Positions 13,010 to 31,216 of a stretch of 33,328 nt of DNA are shown piece after piece. Origin of the DNA: a virus. How positions within the stretch are numbered: position 1 is the stretch's first letter; the number at the start of each line of letters is the position of its first letter. Both the position numbers and the translations under genes were made by a program. The stretch lies in the IMG/VR virus record IMGVR_UViG_3300031841_001549, positions 1 through 33,328 of that record. One strand, given 5' to 3'. The notes beneath the pieces were generated by a model, which saw only the letters and a program-made list of their open reading frames with translations, did no database searches and was not told the DNA's origin.

Positions 13010-16000
13010 ATGCCATACGTACCTCTTTCTGACGGCCAACTTATCTTTGTAGAAACTCAAGAAGAAGCAGATCGTTTATATAACGAGAGCTGGGGTCAGG
13101 GGGCTGCTGCGGAGGCACAACCAGCAGCACCTCAACAACCTGCTCCTGCTGAACAGCAACAAGAAGCCGCTCCTACTGCTCAAGCACAACCTGAGGTTCC
13201 TGAAGAGCGAACCTCTTTGCGCTCTGAACAGGAGCGACCTCTGACTAAATACATCGAAGACCTTGGTCGTGCTGGTGTTGATGGTCTGCGTCAAATTGTT
13301 GACCAGACGTACGGCATGGGCGAGATGATGGCCGAGTTGTACGCAGACGTTGAAGCCGGTCTGGGTGACACTGCCGGTATGATCGCTGGCGGTCCTGCTC
13401 TTGGCGGTAGCCTCAACCCAAACGCTCTTAAAGATCCTGACGTTCTCCGGGAAGAGCTGAATAACGCTGGTTTGGCTTTTGATGCCGTTGTTAAAACCGG
13501 TAAGAACCCTGAAGGTTTTAGCTACGGAATTAAACCCAGTGTTCCTGTTCTCGGTCCTTTGTTCAGTGAGGAAAGTGATCTTGTAGATGAATATGTAAAG
13601 CCCAAAACTGCTCCAGGCAAATTCGTGTCTGGTGTCGTCAGTATTATTGGTGCTGACAAGATTGCTAAAAAGATCGGTCTTAATCCGAACACCGCACCTG
13701 CTCTTGCTCAAGTATTTAAAGCAGAAGGCGCTAAGCAAAAGATAAACGCAGGCACCCGTTACCTCTTCAAAACCTTTCTTCCTGAGTTGGTTGGAGACAG
13801 CATCTACTTCGGTCCTGATCTACCGCCAGAGCTGAATCAAGAGCTTGAGGAAGTCCGAGCAGAGGCTACTCCTGAGCTGCGTCGAGCAGCTATGAAGACC
13901 CTACTGGCTAGGGATGACATTGAGTTTGAGTACGCAAGCGCAGCACTAGAAAATCTGTACTGGGGTGCCGGTACTGTTCTTGGTGTTGATGCTATTGCTA
14001 AACCTCTACTTAAAAAGATCTTCAAAATCGGTAATAACTCCGTACAAGACGTTCAAAACGGCGTACCTATTAACGAAGCAATCGATAAGCGTGTCGATGA
14101 GGGTTTCAAAGAAGTCGAAGAGGTTCTTAGCGAGAACGTCTACGACATGGCCGACACCGTTCGTGATGAGCGGCTTGGTCAACTAAACACTCTCATCAAC
14201 CGCCGTATTGAAGAGAACGTTTCAAAGATTGCTCTTAGCTCTCGCTCTGGCGCTGAGAACTACATCACTAAGCAAACTGATGTTGGTCCACGGCTGAAGG
14301 AAGCTTTGGATGCTGTTGATGAGATCCCTGACATTGGTGAGGAACTGCCTCAGATCAGTGCTCGCGTCAACGACCTTCAAAAAGCTGCTGGTGTTTCTTC
14401 TGTTGATCAGCTTGAAGCTAAGCGTGTGATGCTTACTAAGCGGATTGAAGATTACAACAGAGCAGCAGCTGCTGATCCTGAGTGGATTAACAAAAGCACT
14501 GGCACTGGTAAACGCAAAACAAAGAACAGCACCAAGGTCCGTAAAGCTACCCAAGCTCTTGCACGACTGGCAGATCTTGAGCAAGCAAACATCGAGCTCA
14601 AAGCAGCTCAAGAGGTGATGGATGCTCGTGAGGCTGGCTTCAGCAAAGTCAACGAGTTGTTGCGTGAAGGTGGTGAGTCTTCCCTTGGTTTCAGGAACTC
14701 TCTCAACGATGCACGTACTCTGATCAACAGCATTGAAGAGCTGGACAAAGAGCGTATTGGTCTACTGAAGAACCGCAACAGCGCTCTGTTTGAACAGAAT
14801 CGTTTGGACGAGATCAACAACGATCTCAAGCTGCCTGGTCCCCTTGGTGAGGCTTACCGGGAACTCAAGGACCTTGTTGATTCCGCTGAGATTGCTAACA
14901 ACTTCGGCAACCTCAACGAAGAGTTTATGCGGAACTTTGTTCTCCGTGCTGAGGCTATCGAGAACAAGATCATGGAAGTCGGTGGTATGCAGCCGATCGT
15001 TCCTGAGATGCCAAAAGGCACTCCGTTTGATGATGAGTTCAAACAGCTTGAGATACCTCTGACTGGTGAGGAGGCTGTACCGCCTGAACTGAGTAGCGGT
15101 ATTCCTCGTACTGCTGCTGCTGTTGAGCTGCCTGCTCCTATTACCAAGAACGAAGCTGGTGAGCTTGCTATCGACAGCAACAAAATCACCAACAACATCC
15201 AACTCAAAACGACTCGGCCGCGGCCTACTAGCGTCTCTAACCAGCAAGTTATTGATCAGCTCAACAGGCGTCAAAACAAGATGCTCGATCCTGCTGATAA
15301 CGCAGAAGAGTTCTTGGACAACCTGGACGAGATGGACAAGATCAACAAAGATCTTCTCGCTGCTGGTCGTACCGAAGAGGCTATTGAAGCTACTAAGTGG
15401 AGAAACACCAACAGCATTAAATACGCCACTAGCTGGACTAACGCCAAGATTCTGAAGCTGGCTATTAAACGTCAGCAAGAGAACGCTCGTTGGGTTCCGG
15501 CTCAAGCTGCTGAGGCTGTGTTCCGTTTGTCTGCTCTTCAGGGCTACGACAAGAACCTTGCTCGTATTCAGACCTACTTGCAAGCTGAGAAGATCGCCAA
15601 GAAAGAGAAGAAAGATACAAATGTACTGATTACTGTTCTTGCTCTGCTGGATACCTCATCCACTCAGCTGCTGCGTGATGCTCGTGATATGCGGGCCATT
15701 GTTCGGCAAGAGAACGCAGATGCTCTTATCAAAGAACAAACCCTCCGTAACTTCAAAAACTCTTACGTCGAGCTTCAAGCTGGCGTAAAAGCTGTCACTG
15801 AGTTGATGGACGTTGCAGGTAACCGCTTGCAACTCTTTGGTAAGGCACGACGTTTGGTTGCTGGACCCAGCATCAACGACATCTTCAATTCCTATATGAA
15901 GGCTTTTGGAGATGTTGATGAGCTGTCTGAAACCCTGGCAAAGAACGCAAAGAAAGCCAAGGTTGAAATGGACGCTAAGTTCAACGATGTCTTTGAACGC

Positions 16001-18646
16001 CTTGATAACGGTGAGGAAGTCTCACAAGCAGATCTAGAAGGTCTTGAGGATCTGGCTGATCAGATCTACATGGCCCAAGGTGATCTTAAAAAACTCCAAG
16101 ACCTGCAAGTTACTGACAGGGACATCTTGGCTCGTATTCAGGTCAACGCCAGTATGAGTGGCCCTGATCTGTTCTTGACGATGCCTGTTGATGGTGTTGC
16201 TAACGGTATCCAAGAGAGTGCTTTGCGGGCTGTTGGTTACGGCGTCAACGGTTACTGGGCTAAGTGGGTCACTCAAAACCCTGAGGTCAGTGAAGCTGCA
16301 ATCAAAGAAGCAAGGATTAGCGCTGGTGTTATGTACCAGTGGTTGTTCTCGCTAAACGAAGGCTTTGAGATGGCTTACCGACGGTTTGTTTACGGTAAGC
16401 AAATTGCTGATCCCAAGCAGCTAACCAACAAAGCGTATGAAATGGCTCAAACCGGTGGTATCCGTCGGGAAGAAGCAATCAACCAAGACCTCAGCGCTGA
16501 ATCGCTCAACATTCCGTTCATCAACTACGTCCTTGAGCGTAAGAAAAACGGCGATGACAAGCTGTTCGATGCCATCAACAAGGCTCGGGTTCTCACAAAA
16601 GTGTTCCATGACTACACCATTCCTGGCGAAGCTTGGAACCTGCGTGGACCTGCTGGTAAGGTTCTTGGCGGGTTTACTAGCCTTACTCGTGGGATCACTA
16701 AAAACATCCCGCTTGGCGGAGAGAAAGGTTTAGGTACTCACAGCTACTACCCCGGTGGTGAGTATATGAACCTCAGTTTGGCGACTCAAATTGCTGGTTC
16801 TGCTGACGAGTTTGTCACAACTCTGTTTGCTCACGGTCGAGCTAAAGCAGAAGCAAAACTTATGGTTGATGACCTAATTGCTTCTGGTACTTATGCAGCT
16901 GAAGACCGAGCAAAGATGTATAGAAAACATCTTGCAGAGGCTAAGAGCCGTATCTACAAAGATAAGATCCGGGTTGGTTATGACCAGCGGGTAATCGGTC
17001 GAGCTGTTAACGAGGAAAAAGTCCTTGAGATGACTCGGGCCATCAACTTGGTCGAAGAGCTGACTGGACCTCTTGGTGATATGGAGGATGCCATCAACGT
17101 GCTGCGGAACTCTAAAAACCCGCAGATGGCTGCTTTCTCCCGTCACGTTATTCCGTATGTTGTTTCTCCTGCTAACGCTATTAAGCGTGCAGTTAAATAC
17201 GCATACGGCGGTCAAGTTGCCAACTTCGCTCTTGATATTGGTCGCCTAGGTTTCAAAGAAGCCGCAGGTCGCCTCCCAGAGAAAGTCATCGCTCAAGCTG
17301 ATGCAATGAGCAACGGCGGTCTTACCAAGCACGTACTGGAGTTTGAATCTAAATACTTCAGTGAGGATATGGCTGTCCGCAGTAAGGCACAAGGTGCTCT
17401 AGCTGTTTCTGCTGGCATCATGACCACCACTTGGGCGATGGTCAATATGGGCGAGCACGACATCACTGGCGGTATGGAGCACACCTACCGTCAAGGTGAA
17501 GCAGTTAGAAAACCCTACACCTGGCTGATTAACGGTGAAGAGTACAGCTACCGTTGGTGGCCCATCATTGGTCCTGCTATTGCTTTCCACGCAAACCTGC
17601 GGGATATGGATCAACACGGGACAAACCCGATGAGTGATCTTGTTTCGTTTGCTCTGGCAACAACTGCAAACACCATTATGGAAGTGCCTGCTTTGGCAGG
17701 TATTGAGCAGCTGTTCAAAGTTGTTAGCAGCACTCAAGATGGAAACGTGAATCGTCTCCAGAAGTTCCTTGCTGATGGTGCAGCCAAAGCTGGTGATCCT
17801 TACCTCAACCTCCGTAAGTTCCTCAAGTTTGGCGTTGACCCCCGTAAACCTGCTGATGCACTAGGCCGCTTCAAGCTTCCGTTTACGGAGCGCTTCAAAA
17901 CTGAGCGGACTGCACAAGGTGAGGATGTTGGTTTTGCTAAGCAAACCGCTCAACAGGTTGGTGATGTTGCCAGTATGGCTGTCAGCATGATCGCTAACTC
18001 TTACGAAGACACTCCGTTCACCTTTATTGCAGAAGCAATGATGAACGAGTTCAACGGAGATGAAGATGTTCGTCTGCGGTCTCGTAAATCCATCTGGTAC
18101 GGCAAACCTGAAGAAACCGTCAAAGCAAACCACGCTGGTATCTTCTGGCCTCTCCAATCTGTGTTTGGTCGGTATATGCCGTTCTCTACCAACCAAAACG
18201 ACATCGTTAACCGTGAGATGTTGAACAACATGATCTCTCCTCCTGCACCAAATATGTTTGCAGCTGATGGAGTGAAAGCTGTTGATAAGACGGTTCTCAA
18301 TAACTTTGGGTTCTACCTAAACACTGAGTACACGTTCTACAGCCCACGGTTCAGAAAGACTTACACAGGTGTTAATGAGTACCTGCGTGATGTCATTAAA
18401 GATCCTTTGTACCAATCTCTTCCTTCCCTTGATTCTCCTTACGCAATGGGTAACACCTTTAGCGAGAAAGAGTTCAATTGGGACCGTGAGAACAACAGTC
18501 GTAGAGCAATGTTGATGAAAGAAGTTAGGGCGCTCTACAGTGGAGCAAAGGAAAAGTTCCTACAAGGAGACCAGCCAAATCAACGATTTAAGGCTCCTGA
18601 AAACCTCAAGCAGTACATCAACACCCAACGAGGGATGATTAAGTAA
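13010..18646 (+). CDS. Giant internal virion protein (T7 gp16-like), 1878 aa
   Basis: The largest gene in the window, in the gp16 position just before the tail fibre. Residues 30-75 are a Pro/Gln/Ala-rich linker. Residues about 80-330 include Gly-rich hydrophobic stretches (GDTAGMIAGGPALGGSL, PGKFVSGVVSIIGADKI). The rest is long helical and coiled-coil sequence. T7 gp16 (1318 residues) is ejected, spans the envelope and helps translocate DNA; its N-terminus carries a lytic transglycosylase. I do not see a transglycosylase motif here; the wall-cutting role seems to have moved to the M23-like domain of the upstream protein. The last residues (QRFKAPENLKQYINTQRGMIK) run into the fibre gene by a TAATG overlap. 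Confidence 0.85.
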   Translation: MPYVPLSDGQLIFVETQEEADRLYNESWGQGAAAEAQPAAPQQPAPAEQQQEAAPTAQAQPEVPEERTSLRSEQERPLTKYIEDLGRAGVDGLRQIVDQTYGMGEMMAELYADVEAGLGDTAGMIAGGPALGGSLNPNALKDPDVLREELNNAGLAFDAVVKTGKNPEGFSYGIKPSVPVLGPLFSEESDLVDEYVKPKTAPGKFVSGVVSIIGADKIAKKIGLNPNTAPALAQVFKAEGAKQKINAGTRYLFKTFLPELVGDSIYFGPDLPPELNQELEEVRAEATPELRRAAMKTLLARDDIEFEYASAALENLYWGAGTVLGVDAIAKPLLKKIFKIGNNSVQDVQNGVPINEAIDKRVDEGFKEVEEVLSENVYDMADTVRDERLGQLNTLINRRIEENVSKIALSSRSGAENYITKQTDVGPRLKEALDAVDEIPDIGEELPQISARVNDLQKAAGVSSVDQLEAKRVMLTKRIEDYNRAAAADPEWINKSTGTGKRKTKNSTKVRKATQALARLADLEQANIELKAAQEVMDAREAGFSKVNELLREGGESSLGFRNSLNDARTLINSIEELDKERIGLLKNRNSALFEQNRLDEINNDLKLPGPLGEAYRELKDLVDSAEIANNFGNLNEEFMRNFVLRAEAIENKIMEVGGMQPIVPEMPKGTPFDDEFKQLEIPLTGEEAVPPELSSGIPRTAAAVELPAPITKNEAGELAIDSNKITNNIQLKTTRPRPTSVSNQQVIDQLNRRQNKMLDPADNAEEFLDNLDEMDKINKDLLAAGRTEEAIEATKWRNTNSIKYATSWTNAKILKLAIKRQQENARWVPAQAAEAVFRLSALQGYDKNLARIQTYLQAEKIAKKEKKDTNVLITVLALLDTSSTQLLRDARDMRAIVRQENADALIKEQTLRNFKNSYVELQAGVKAVTELMDVAGNRLQLFGKARRLVAGPSINDIFNSYMKAFGDVDELSETLAKNAKKAKVEMDAKFNDVFERLDNGEEVSQADLEGLEDLADQIYMAQGDLKKLQDLQVTDRDILARIQVNASMSGPDLFLTMPVDGVANGIQESALRAVGYGVNGYWAKWVTQNPEVSEAAIKEARISAGVMYQWLFSLNEGFEMAYRRFVYGKQIADPKQLTNKAYEMAQTGGIRREEAINQDLSAESLNIPFINYVLERKKNGDDKLFDAINKARVLTKVFHDYTIPGEAWNLRGPAGKVLGGFTSLTRGITKNIPLGGEKGLGTHSYYPGGEYMNLSLATQIAGSADEFVTTLFAHGRAKAEAKLMVDDLIASGTYAAEDRAKMYRKHLAEAKSRIYKDKIRVGYDQRVIGRAVNEEKVLEMTRAINLVEELTGPLGDMEDAINVLRNSKNPQMAAFSRHVIPYVVSPANAIKRAVKYAYGGQVANFALDIGRLGFKEAAGRLPEKVIAQADAMSNGGLTKHVLEFESKYFSEDMAVRSKAQGALAVSAGIMTTTWAMVNMGEHDITGGMEHTYRQGEAVRKPYTWLINGEEYSYRWWPIIGPAIAFHANLRDMDQHGTNPMSDLVSFALATTANTIMEVPALAGIEQLFKVVSSTQDGNVNRLQKFLADGAAKAGDPYLNLRKFLKFGVDPRKPADALGRFKLPFTERFKTERTAQGEDVGFAKQTAQQVGDVASMAVSMIANSYEDTPFTFIAEAMMNEFNGDEDVRLRSRKSIWYGKPEETVKANHAGIFWPLQSVFGRYMPFSTNQNDIVNREMLNNMISPPAPNMFAADGVKAVDKTVLNNFGFYLNTEYTFYSPRFRKTYTGVNEYLRDVIKDPLYQSLPSLDSPYAMGNTFSEKEFNWDRENNSRRAMLMKEVRALYSGAKEKFLQGDQPNQRFKAPENLKQYINTQRGMIK

Positions 18647-23929: not shown

Positions 23930-24289
23930 ATGTTCAAGTCTGCTTCTGCCGCCCTTGCGGCTATGGTCCTGGCAGCTCCTGCAGCCATTGCTGGTCCTTT
24001 CTACGCCAACGTCGAAGCCAACAGCGGCTTTGTCGGTTCCGACTACAGCGCCACTACCACTGATTTCCACATTGGTGTAGAAGGTGCTTCTGGCGTTGCT
24101 AGCTACTACCTGCAAGGTGGCCCTAGCTACACGGTGCCTGACGGCGGTGTGGGCAGCACCATTGCTACCGGCAAAATGGGTGGCTCGATTGCGGCCTCTG
24201 AACAGCTTTCCGTGTACGGAGAACTCAGTGCCGCATTTGACGACGTGAACTCCTACGGAGCTAAGGCCGGAGCTAAGTACAAGTTCTAA
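23930..24289 (+). CDS. Exported outer-membrane beta-barrel-like protein
   Basis: A 119-residue protein with a clear signal peptide: KSASAALAAMVLAAPAAIA followed by G-P, with a likely cleavage after AIA at residue 21. The mature part is about 98 residues of alternating polar and hydrophobic beta strands rich in Tyr, Gly and Ser (FYANVEANSGFVGSDYSA, HIGVEGASGVASYYLQGG, SVYGELSAAF). It ends in Phe (AKYKF), the C-terminal signature of outer-membrane proteins assembled by BamA. It therefore probably enters the host periplasm and outer membrane, for example in lysis, superinfection exclusion or surface change; which one is not visible. TAATG coupling joins it to the next gene. Confidence 0.75.
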   Translation: MFKSASAALAAMVLAAPAAIAGPFYANVEANSGFVGSDYSATTTDFHIGVEGASGVASYYLQGGPSYTVPDGGVGSTIATGKMGGSIAASEQLSVYGELSAAFDDVNSYGAKAGAKYKF

Positions 24290-27430: not shown

Positions 27431-27595
27431 ATGGATTTTTCTGATCCTGCTGTTCAAGCGATCCTGTGGTCGCTGGCCTTTGCTGTGTCCGAATTGATCG
27501 GTGCATCAAAGATGAAGGAAAATGGCCTCGTACAATTGGGGTTGAAACTGTTTAAAACCGCTTATGGCAGCTTCTCCAAAAAAGGCTCTAAATAA
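27431..27595 (+). CDS. Small hydrophobic protein (54 aa)
   Basis: A 54-residue frame, MDFSDPAVQAILWSLAFAVS then ELIGASKMKENGLVQLGL, ending in basic KKGSK. One hydrophobic stretch, residues 7-25, may span or lie on the membrane; the second half is amphipathic. I recall similar MDF/MDP...SELIGASK proteins in cyanophages without known role. The stop lies inside the start of the small terminase gene (32-bp overlap). Confidence 0.6.
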   Translation: MDFSDPAVQAILWSLAFAVSELIGASKMKENGLVQLGLKLFKTAYGSFSKKGSK

Positions 27596-27836
27596 ACCTA
27601 CAGGTCTCGCATCAGAAGACGATCTGTATTCACTCCACCGACTGGTGGCTACGAAACTGATTGATCAACTGAATCGTGAGGATGTAAAAGCTTCTGACCT
27701 TGCTAACGCTATTAAGTTCCTCAAGGATCAGGGTATTACTGCTCTGAACGGTGGTGACGTTAGCGCTATTTCTGAGATGATTTCTGCACTTCCAGAAGTC
27801 GATATTAAAAAGGTTAGAAGCTATATTGGTGCATAG
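27564..27836 (+). CDS. terS: Small terminase subunit (DNA maturase A, T7 gp18-like)
   Basis: A 90-residue protein, the same size as T7 gp18 (89). The sequence EDDLYSLHRLVATKLIDQLN followed by SDLANAIKFLKDQGITAL matches the small-terminase pattern of T7-like cyanophages. It recognises concatemer DNA and works with the large subunit, whose gene lies about 550 bp downstream. Two genes, an HNH endonuclease and an NblA-like gene, lie between; in T7 the interval holds the spanin genes. No strong ribosome-binding site is visible, so coupling to the preceding overlapping gene is likely. Confidence 0.75.
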   Translation: MAASPKKALNKPTGLASEDDLYSLHRLVATKLIDQLNREDVKASDLANAIKFLKDQGITALNGGDVSAISEMISALPEVDIKKVRSYIGA

Positions 27837-27838
27837 GG

Positions 27839-27909
27839 ACACAAAACCCTATATGTACCAAGCAAAACCCCCGGTATGGTGATTAGATCGCCTGCTGGGG
27901 GTTTTGTGT
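27839..27909 (+). promoter_or_regulatory. Two competing long hairpins around the HNH start
   Basis: CAAAACCCCC (27863-27872) pairs perfectly with GGGGGTTTTG (27897-27906) around a 24-base loop that contains the ATG at 27876. An upstream arm ACACAAAACCC (27839-27849) can pair perfectly with GGGTTTTGTGT (27899-27909), so the two left arms compete for one right arm. Directly after the small terminase gene this could act as terminator, attenuator or translational switch for the endonuclease. Confidence 0.6.
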
Positions 27910-28250
27910 ATCTAACGCCAGATGCAGCTATGGCTAACCTCCAAGCGCTACAGCGACGAGAAGCAGTCAAGCAGTGGAGACAATCAATTAAAGATGCGTT
28001 CGGTTGTAAGTGTGCCTATTGCGGCACTAAAAGCGAAAAGTTAACTCTGGATCATATTCACCCCAAAACTAAAGGCGGCGAGGACCTAGCTACGAACATT
28101 GTCCCCGCTTGCAGCCGTTGTAACCACGAAAAAGGCAGTAACAATTGGAGACTGTGGTTTAAGAGCCGCCCTGACTATTGTGAGGAGCGAGAACTGGTTA
28201 TCGACAGATGGATGAATTGCCTCCTCTGCCCAATCTCAATCTCTCCATAG
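27876..28250 (+). CDS. HNH endonuclease (probable free-standing homing enzyme)
   Basis: A 124-residue protein with a full HNH zinc motif: CAYCG (Cys46, Cys49), LDHIHPKTKGG (Asp59-His60, His62), NIVPACSRCNHEKGS (Asn74, Cys79, Cys82, His84). HNH enzymes of this type nick or cut DNA near their own gene and spread into phages lacking them; those beside terminase genes may also assist packaging. The ATG at 27876 lies in a hairpin loop. ATG 27930 (MANLQALQRREAV) is an alternative start that keeps the whole domain. The last 43 bp overlap the NblA-like gene. Confidence 0.85.
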   Translation: MVIRSPAGGFVYLTPDAAMANLQALQRREAVKQWRQSIKDAFGCKCAYCGTKSEKLTLDHIHPKTKGGEDLATNIVPACSRCNHEKGSNNWRLWFKSRPDYCEERELVIDRWMNCLLCPISISP

Positions 28251-28408
28251 AGCAAGAGCTCAGGATGGAGCGGATCAAAAGAGATCTGCCTAACGCTAGT
28301 CGTGAAGACTTGGAGAAGTTTGCCTTGGAGTTCGCCAAGATGAACCTAATCCTGCAGAATAACTTGAGCCAAGTGTTTAAGTGGGCTCACGATGCCAAGG
28401 GTAAGTAA
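28208..28408 (+). CDS. nblA: NblA-like phycobilisome degradation protein
   Basis: A 66-residue protein. After a short Pro-rich start (MDELPPLPNLN) it reads LSIEQELRMERIKRDLPNAS, then REDLEKFALEFAKMNLILQN, then NLSQVFKWA. This follows the NblA pattern: an initial LS[LI]EQE[FL], a Ser-Arg/x-Glu turn, a second helix with Met and Asn, and a 55-66 residue total. NblA dimers bind phycobiliproteins and ClpC and trigger antenna breakdown; freshwater cyanophages are known to carry nblA. Here it would release amino acids or reduce light capture during infection. The gene is squeezed between HNH and large terminase, overlapping both (43 and 17 bp). The call rests on motif pattern in a short protein. Confidence 0.6.
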   Translation: MDELPPLPNLNLSIEQELRMERIKRDLPNASREDLEKFALEFAKMNLILQNNLSQVFKWAHDAKGK

Positions 28409-30146
28409 AGAAACAGAACGGATTATTCAGGAATCTGTAGAAAGCTTTCCTGTCTTTGCTACTCACCTTTGGCACTACCTACGACTGCCAAGTCCTACCC
28501 CTGTTCAGTACCAGCTGGCTGATTACCTACAGAACGGCCCTGAACGACGCATCATCATGGCGTACAGGGGCTGCGGAAAGAGCTTTCTGACGGCTGGCTA
28601 CGTGCTTTGGAGGCTCCGTAGGGACCCAGATACCAAAGTGCTGGTTATATCGGCCGCACAGGACCGTGCAGACGCCTTCTCGGTGTTCTGTCATGACTTG
28701 CTGCGTAACTGGTTCATGGTCAAAGACCTGTTCCCTAGCGATACGCAGCGATTTAGCAAAGTCGCGTTCGATGTTTACGGTGCTAAGCCCGATCAAAGCC
28801 CCTCGGTACGCTCCAGCGGCATCTTTGGCCAAATCACGGGCTCTCGTGCAGACCTGATCGTCGCTGACGACGTAGAAACACCTCAGTCGTGCGAAACCCA
28901 ACTTATCCGCGACAAACTTCGTGAGTCGATTAAAGAATTTGACTCCGTGATCAAGCCTGGTGGTGAGATCGTGTTTCTCGGAACGCCTCATACCCAAGAC
29001 TCGATCTACGCAAAGCTCGAGATGGCGGGTTACTCCTGTCGTATTTGGCCAGCTCTGTACCCAACAGCCAAGAAACGACAGAACTACTACGGTCACCGCC
29101 TAGCACCCAAGATCCAGTCAGACCTCGATAACGACAAGAGCCTAGCTGGACATCCAGTAGACCCTCGTCGCTTCGGGTGGGAGGAGTTAGAGGCGCGTCA
29201 GCTCTCCATTGGTAAGTCTACGTTCAACCTCCAGTTCCTCCTAGACATCTCACTGAGTGATGAAGAACGGTTCCCTCTCAAACTCAAGGACCTCTGTGTG
29301 TTCCGCCTAAACCGCGAACAAGGCCCTGACAAGGTGGTGTGGATGGCTAACGGCGATAAAGCCCTAGACCTCCCCTCTGTCGGTCTTCACGGTGATTTGT
29401 TCTACAAGCCTGCACAAATCGGATCGGAGTTTCTTGAGTACACCGGAGTCGTCATGAGCGTTGACCCGAGCGGACGCGGCTCTGACGAGCTCGGTTATGC
29501 AGTAGTCGCCTACTTGAACGGTAACCTTTTCCTTCTCGCGAGCGGTGGCCTTCGGGGAGGTTACAGCGAGACGAATCTTAAAAAGCTCGCTCTCATCGGC
29601 AAAGAATTTAAGGTCAAGCAAATACTGGTTGAGAGCAACCTCGGCCTCGGGATGTTCTCTGAGCTTCTCAAACGTTACTTGGGAACGATTTACCCCTGCA
29701 GCGTTGAAGAGGTTCGACACACAAAACAAAAGGAAGTCAGGATCATCGACACCCTTGAGCCGGTCTTGAACCAACACAGGCTCATGGTTGACATCGACGT
29801 AATCACTCAGGATCTCGCCACCACTGAGTGCTATCCAACTGAAACTCGAAGTCAGTACCAGCTCTTCTTCCAGCTGACCCGTATTACTAAAGAGAAAAAT
29901 TCCTTGAGGCATGACGACCGCTTAGATGCCCTCGCTATGGCTGTCCAGTACTTTACGGAGTCCATGGCTCAAACGGAACGTAACGCTATGGCAGCTCGAG
30001 CAGCAGAACAGTGGGAACTGGAACGAAAGTTCATCCAAGGTGAAGGTGGTTTGTCGATAGACGTTATGGGATACGCAGGCTCTTTAGAGGACCTTCAGAG
30101 GGCCTCTACGGCCTCTGTAGGGGGTGCTAACTGGTTAGATACCTAA
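28392..30146 (+). CDS. terL: Large terminase subunit (T7 gp19 family)
   Basis: A 584-residue packaging motor and nuclease, matching T7 gp19 (586). The ATPase domain has Walker A AYRGCGKS (residues 57-64) and Walker B ADLIVADDVE (153-162) with catalytic Glu162. The motif VFLGTPHTQDSIY follows near residue 195. The RNase H-like nuclease domain shows SVDPSGRGSDELGY with Asp358, LVESNLGLG with Glu414, and LRHDDRLDALAMA with Asp508, Asp509 and Asp512. It cuts concatemers and pumps DNA through the portal. The start overlaps the NblA-like gene by 17 bp. No defect is seen. Confidence 0.97.
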   Translation: MPRVSKETERIIQESVESFPVFATHLWHYLRLPSPTPVQYQLADYLQNGPERRIIMAYRGCGKSFLTAGYVLWRLRRDPDTKVLVISAAQDRADAFSVFCHDLLRNWFMVKDLFPSDTQRFSKVAFDVYGAKPDQSPSVRSSGIFGQITGSRADLIVADDVETPQSCETQLIRDKLRESIKEFDSVIKPGGEIVFLGTPHTQDSIYAKLEMAGYSCRIWPALYPTAKKRQNYYGHRLAPKIQSDLDNDKSLAGHPVDPRRFGWEELEARQLSIGKSTFNLQFLLDISLSDEERFPLKLKDLCVFRLNREQGPDKVVWMANGDKALDLPSVGLHGDLFYKPAQIGSEFLEYTGVVMSVDPSGRGSDELGYAVVAYLNGNLFLLASGGLRGGYSETNLKKLALIGKEFKVKQILVESNLGLGMFSELLKRYLGTIYPCSVEEVRHTKQKEVRIIDTLEPVLNQHRLMVDIDVITQDLATTECYPTETRSQYQLFFQLTRITKEKNSLRHDDRLDALAMAVQYFTESMAQTERNAMAARAAEQWELERKFIQGEGGLSIDVMGYAGSLEDLQRASTASVGGANWLDT

Positions 30147-30559: not shown

Positions 30560-31216
30560 ATGACTTGCAAGCTGGTTACTAGGACACCAGACGCAGAGAA
30601 CCTCCTTGTCTATATGGCAAGGGTTAGTAACCCAGCTAATCAGTCCTCCAACCTCAACAACGAAAGACTGATTAACTACCTCATCAAGCACCGTCATTGG
30701 TCTCCCTTTGAGATGGTGCATCTGGTACTAGAAATCAATACCACCAGATCTATTGCTGCTCAGATCCTTAGGCACAGATCGTTCTCGTTCCAAGAGTTCT
30801 CCCAGAGATACGCAGATGTCAAAGAGCTAGGAACAACAACAGCTCCTCACCTCAGAAGACAAGACACCAAAAACAGACAGAACAGTATTGATGATCTGGA
30901 TCCTCAGAAGACTCAGATCTTTTACAGGAGGATCAATCAGCTCTTTGAGGAGTCCCAAGACCTCTACAGAGAGATGGTGAGCTCTGGGGTAGCTAAAGAG
31001 TCAGCACGGGATGTTCTTCCTCTTGCTACTCCTACTCGGTTGTATATGTCTGGAACTCTCAGGAGCTGGATTCACTACATCGATCTAAGAGCTGCTAACG
31101 GGACTCAACTAGAACATCAACAAATAGCTCTCCAGTGCAAAGAGATTTTCTGTAAAGAGTTCCCTACAGTAGGTAAAGCTCTTGGCTGGCTTGTAGATGG
31201 CTCGCAACTACCGTAA
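30560..31216 (+). CDS. thyX: Flavin-dependent thymidylate synthase ThyX
   Basis: A 218-residue protein carrying the ThyX signature RHRx7S: Arg71-His72-Arg73 followed by seven residues and Ser81 (RHRSFSFQEFSQRY). Other family parts are HWSPFEMVHLVLEI (46-59), IAAQILRHRS, and the C-terminal LPLATPTRLYMSGTLRSWIH and IDLRAANGTQLEHQQIA with the substrate-binding Arg and Gln/His residues. It makes dTMP from dUMP using methylenetetrahydrofolate, FAD and NADPH, supplying dTTP for phage replication. Length is normal. No ribosome-binding site precedes ATG 30560; the leader is a repeat array. The end overlaps the next gene by 20 bp. Confidence 0.93.
   Translation: MTCKLVTRTPDAENLLVYMARVSNPANQSSNLNNERLINYLIKHRHWSPFEMVHLVLEINTTRSIAAQILRHRSFSFQEFSQRYADVKELGTTTAPHLRRQDTKNRQNSIDDLDPQKTQIFYRRINQLFEESQDLYREMVSSGVAKESARDVLPLATPTRLYMSGTLRSWIHYIDLRAANGTQLEHQQIALQCKEIFCKEFPTVGKALGWLVDGSQLP

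Follow-up and report, generated by a model that had tools for sequence, protein, structure and literature searches.

A predicted NblA-family gene between HNH endonuclease and large terminase genes in a podovirus lineage related to phage P-RSP2

We analyzed a 33,328-nucleotide stretch of viral DNA (IMG/VR record IMGVR_UViG_3300031841_001549; hereafter the window) that carries a short open reading frame (ORF) in its packaging block (Table 1). A preliminary description of this DNA had placed a 66-residue ORF between the genes for an HNH endonuclease and the large terminase subunit (TerL), overlapping both. Both points were borne out. The ORF is a forward-strand frame with an ATG start, encodes MDELPPLPNLNLSIEQELRMERIKRDLPNASREDLEKFALEFAKMNLILQNNLSQVFKWAHDAKGK, and shares 43 bases with the upstream HNH ORF and 17 bases with TerL. 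Read in a different frame, the HNH ORF continues across the beginning of the short ORF (...IDRWMNCLLCPISISP). We observed no obvious ribosome-binding site immediately adjacent upstream of that start.

Table 1. Coordinates of the packaging block and of other genes of the window discussed in the text
Feature	Coordinates	Strand	Basis
1878-aa ORF, probably an internal virion protein	13010..18646	+	no confident NCBIfam match
Cyanophage outer-membrane-like beta barrel protein	23930..24289	+	PF24653, E 1.3e-37
Small terminase subunit (TerS), start of the TerS-HNH-NblA-TerL block	27564..27836	+	PF11123 DNA_Packaging_2, synteny
HNH endonuclease gene, upstream of nblA	27876..28250	+	PF14279 / PF01844
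nblA-like gene, 66 aa, NblA family (PF04485)	28208..28408	+	Pfam, 3cs5 match, hairpin model, purifying selection
Large terminase subunit (TerL, DNA maturase B)	28392..30146	+	PF22530, phrog_38
FAD-dependent thymidylate synthase, directly after TerL	30560..31216	+	PF02511

NblA is a small dimeric hairpin protein that connects the phycobilisome to ClpC and hence to Clp proteolysis (PMC7966870). A profile search of the kind proposed in the preliminary description matched the 66-aa protein to a single Pfam family, NblA (PF04485), at 26.7 bits against the curated cut-off of 25, a margin of 1.7 bits (E 7.7e-6, profile positions 1-46 of 50). The protein also matched S. elongatus NblA (PDB 3cs5; phmmer, E 1.2e-6, ~35% identity). 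We also searched with a profile of 74 viral homologues, 64 of which matched PF04485 individually; it recovered 3cs5 (1.3e-10) and three further NblA crystal sequences, 2q8v, 1ojh and 2qdo (3e-4 to 3e-3). Identity to characterised host NblA or cultured podophage NblA was about 35-37%. Its 66 aa, and the 65-84 aa of its relatives, fit the small size expected of NblA (~55-65 aa). The proposed LSIEQEL signature was found and the length agrees, but the motif lies at residues 12-18 and not at the protein start. Against the NCBIfam equivalog NF045916 (PhycobilmeDegNblA, cut-off 100) the protein scored 24.8 bits; KBS-P-1A NblA scored 24.2, S-SRP01 NblA 20.3 and WH11-B NblA did not match. By these scores, this narrow model excludes the phage NblAs as a group.

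The single-chain structure prediction was, as had been anticipated, a hairpin of two helices (residues 14-29 and 32-65) with high confidence (mean pLDDT 91.4), and M45, N46, N51 and N52 fall within the predicted second helix, in line with the Met/Asn content claimed for it. A Foldseek search of the model against the PDB, run without a control, did not return the NblA crystals (best E 6.6). We took this result as uninformative, since structural searches of this kind struggle with helical hairpins of so few residues. Against BFVD, Foldseek returned one 79-aa viral protein (E 2.2e-3, probability 1.00, 36% identity). Across the 74 viral homologues, W59 is invariant and K58 nearly so, and in a hand alignment K58 corresponds to Anabaena K53, and V56 to Anabaena L51. 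Work by Bienert in 2006 reportedly found that these two C-terminal residues of Anabaena NblA are needed for phycobilisome binding. The Pfam match above cut-off, the matches to NblA crystal sequences and the predicted hairpin uphold the original identification, and, judged by sequence, the 66-aa protein belongs to the NblA family.

The closest isolated phage by TerL is Prochlorococcus phage P-RSP2 (86% identity), an outlier among cyanopodoviruses (PMC9860041) whose genus lacks psbA and nblA in a published table (PMC5332604). Both P-RSP2 and the window have the order TerS-HNH-TerL, and psbA and a T7-type RNA polymerase were undetected in P-RSP2, as in the clade of the window. Unlike the window, P-RSP2 has no nblA, and its HNH gene, which ends in ...FINNWISA, overlaps TerL directly; a PF04485 search of the whole P-RSP2 record found nothing. 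Two TerL-based scans yielded 85 distinct TerL sequences whose loci also showed TerS. HNH and NblA occurred together in 53/85, and all 53 were arranged as TerS-HNH-NblA-TerL (locus G+C 42-49%), so that an HNH gene accompanied nblA in 53/53 nblA-bearing relatives. HNH without NblA was found in 3/85 (P-RSP2 type; G+C 33-35%), and 29/85 had neither (G+C 37-43%). The nblA slot was thus empty in 32 distinct TerL relatives, P-RSP2 included. A single branch of the TerL tree (SH-aLRT 100) divides carriers from non-carriers, with gain and loss indistinguishable; because this is a single event, the tree does not establish a correlation of nblA with host. The junction of nblA and TerL seems to accept inserts: one locus (L058:3493-3909, minus strand) has a 138-aa ORF there that by eye resembles endonuclease VII, two others (L060 and L061) have a similar gap, and KBS-P-1A has an unassigned 271-aa ORF between HNH and TerL.

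We considered whether this NblA-family protein could have a changed cargo, docking on ClpC and delivering other host proteins, such as defence or photosystem proteins, in place of the phycobilisome. Its low identity to host NblA (~35% to 3cs5) and a clade-specific invariant motif, LQNN..W.A, that is absent in that form from the host crystals would fit such a shift. Yet the N-terminal PPLP..LS.EQ stretch and the lysine of the C-terminal helix are kept in the viral homologues. The nblA-free sister lineages also include a phage of Prochlorococcus, a genus largely without phycobilisomes, as an antenna cargo would predict. We regard a changed cargo as improbable. Still less credible is a small accessory packaging protein that owes its NblA hairpin to common ancestry or to convergence and works with HNH and TerL. 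In its clade the gene always lies between HNH and TerL, as such a role would suggest, but 32 distinct TerL relatives, P-RSP2 among them, package DNA without it, the homologues of other podophages sit in a DNA-metabolism module, and the sequence matches are to NblA, with none to packaging proteins. We rejected this candidate on these grounds.

Close relatives of the window nblA were found at 60 IMG/VR loci. Over residues 15-60, which lie outside the overlaps, the nblA frame is open in 69/69 distinct homologous coding sequences and each of the other two forward frames contains a stop in 69/69. In the same region pN/pS, from uncorrected counts over non-independent pairs, was 0.13 when close relatives were paired and 0.26-0.28 in more distant pairings. 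At residues 62-66, where the gene overlaps TerL, it was at least 0.6, as expected because the DNA there is constrained by a second frame. The nblA ORF is a real gene under purifying selection. A chance open frame or decayed relic, which the short length, the two overlaps and the lack of an obvious adjacent ribosome-binding site might suggest, is almost certainly wrong given the conserved open frame with both other forward frames closed, the low pN/pS and the Pfam match, and was rejected.

We compared the gene with other NblA systems. The NblAs of cultured cyanopodoviruses that infect Synechococcus (S-RIP2, KBS-P-1A, S-SRP01, S-B28 and WH11-B) share 34-37% identity and a PPxP...EQ...N..LxK.W pattern with the window protein. 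Their nblA adjoins an exonuclease gene, upstream of ribonucleotide reductase (RNR), whereas the window nblA lies between HNH and TerL and not between exonuclease and RNR, the position that defines the exonuclease-linked class (80 IMG/VR loci retrieved). The exonuclease-linked podophages have a T7-type RNA polymerase and, in most cases, psbA as well, and neither was detected in the clade of the window. The two NblA classes occupy different genomic settings. The preliminary description had expected that the gene could easily be missed or called hypothetical, and indeed a PHROGs search with the 66-aa protein gave no match and podophage homologues are labelled 'hypothetical protein' or unannotated. 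In KBS-P-1A, nblA (34501-34680, CYZG_00043) is annotated as hypothetical from an internal start, and in the near-identical S-RIP2 record nblA (about 29035-29214) has no annotation.

Cyanobacterial NblA (S. elongatus 3cs5; crystals 2q8v, 1ojh and 2qdo) resembles the window protein in length (~60 aa), in the hairpin, predicted here for the phage protein, and in the PPLP..LS.EQ N-terminus. The window protein differs in being viral, in its ~35% identity and in having its own C-terminal motif; host nblA is induced by starvation, whereas the window nblA sits in a packaging block. NblAs of the Microcystis and Planktothrix phages Ma-LMM01, MaMV-DC and PaV-LD and of the myophages S-TIM5 and S-SCSM1, for which antenna degradation during infection has been proposed (PMC9602691, PMC5780444), belong to phage families other than that of the window, and tblastn with the window protein did not find them even at E 10. 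A scan of genome contigs in search of a host donor gave a single locus, on a metagenome-assembled contig filed under bacterium TMED88 (L283, NHEP01000067.1). Besides replication genes of podophage type, this contig has an NblA of the exonuclease-linked class (PF04485, 25.4 bits) and is probably a misbinned cyanophage.

We also assessed the gene content of longer relatives; only their length and gene content served to judge them near-complete. Genes for exonuclease, DNA polymerase, primase/helicase and RNR are present in two such contigs of the clade (G014, 43 kb; G015, 41 kb), each of which has a single nblA, at TerL. We considered and rejected an additional nblA in the exonuclease slot, since none was found in the longer contigs of the clade. 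Searches with PF00940 (T7-type RNA polymerase) and PF00124 (PsbA) gave no match in G014, G015, P-RSP2 (L285) or the nblA-free contig G021 (39 kb). Both were present in KBS-P-1A, WH11-B and the IMG/VR contig G033, and S-SRP01 had the polymerase only. No terminal repeats were found in the window, G014, G015 or G021. Elsewhere in the window, the 1878-aa ORF has relatives in G014 (36%) and G021 (27%). The beta barrel protein has a relative (70%) encoded immediately ahead of psbA in KBS-P-1A and another in G021. The thymidylate synthase gene occupies the same place in KBS-P-1A and had no match in P-RSP2 or G021.

Overall, our analysis suggests that the window gene is very probably a functional phage nblA, encoding a hairpin protein through which the antenna would be dismantled by way of ClpC and the Clp protease during infection. 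Expression of nblA from freshwater cyanophages and from marine viral metagenomes in cyanobacteria caused loss of phycobilin (PMC9602691). The infected cell would produce a small NblA-family protein with a helical hairpin fold that, by analogy with host NblA, may dimerise, bind the host phycobilisome and pass phycobiliproteins to the ClpC-containing Clp protease. Dismantling of the antenna could free amino acids for virion proteins and reduce light capture; benefits proposed for phage NblA are a supply of amino acids and protection against too much light (PMC9602691, PMC5780444). A benefit to the phage, including the nitrogen gain put forward at the outset, is plausible. The nblA gene would probably be co-transcribed and translationally coupled with HNH and TerL, and its position among packaging genes points to late expression. 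T7-like expression timing is not safe to assume because the near-complete relatives gave no match to a T7-type RNA polymerase. Synechococcus, the host named in the preliminary description, is a likely host of the window virus; the clues diverge, as the nearest NblA carriers among isolates infect Synechococcus and the nearest terminase is from a Prochlorococcus phage.

The window nblA adds to the known phage NblAs, which comprise those of Microcystis phages, those of marine phages since 2019 (Nadel 2019) and those of a 2025 study, in a different genomic slot. That study, by Nadel, is reportedly a large functional study of phage NblA. A literature search, exclusive of the 2025 study, found no report of NblA between HNH and TerL or in the sister clade of P-RSP2. 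Both the fixation in this sister clade and the slot may be new.

A broader and more speculative reading, which we consider possible but doubtful, is that of a distinct podovirus lineage, sister to P-RSP2, without psbA and a phage RNA polymerase and with nblA in the packaging operon. Such phages would dismantle rather than maintain host photosynthesis and would tie antenna breakdown to the terminase transcript, with nblA gained or lost upon switches between antenna-bearing and antenna-less hosts. As summarised in PMC12892361, Nadel 2025 estimated a global-scale drop in light capture by phage NblA, and counts of nblA carriers matter because of this estimated effect. Our data add a clade with fixed nblA, in a form missed by the PHROGs library. 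Phages with and without nblA but with ~86-88% identical terminases provide a natural comparison, and the two genomic positions of nblA may mean different expression timing.
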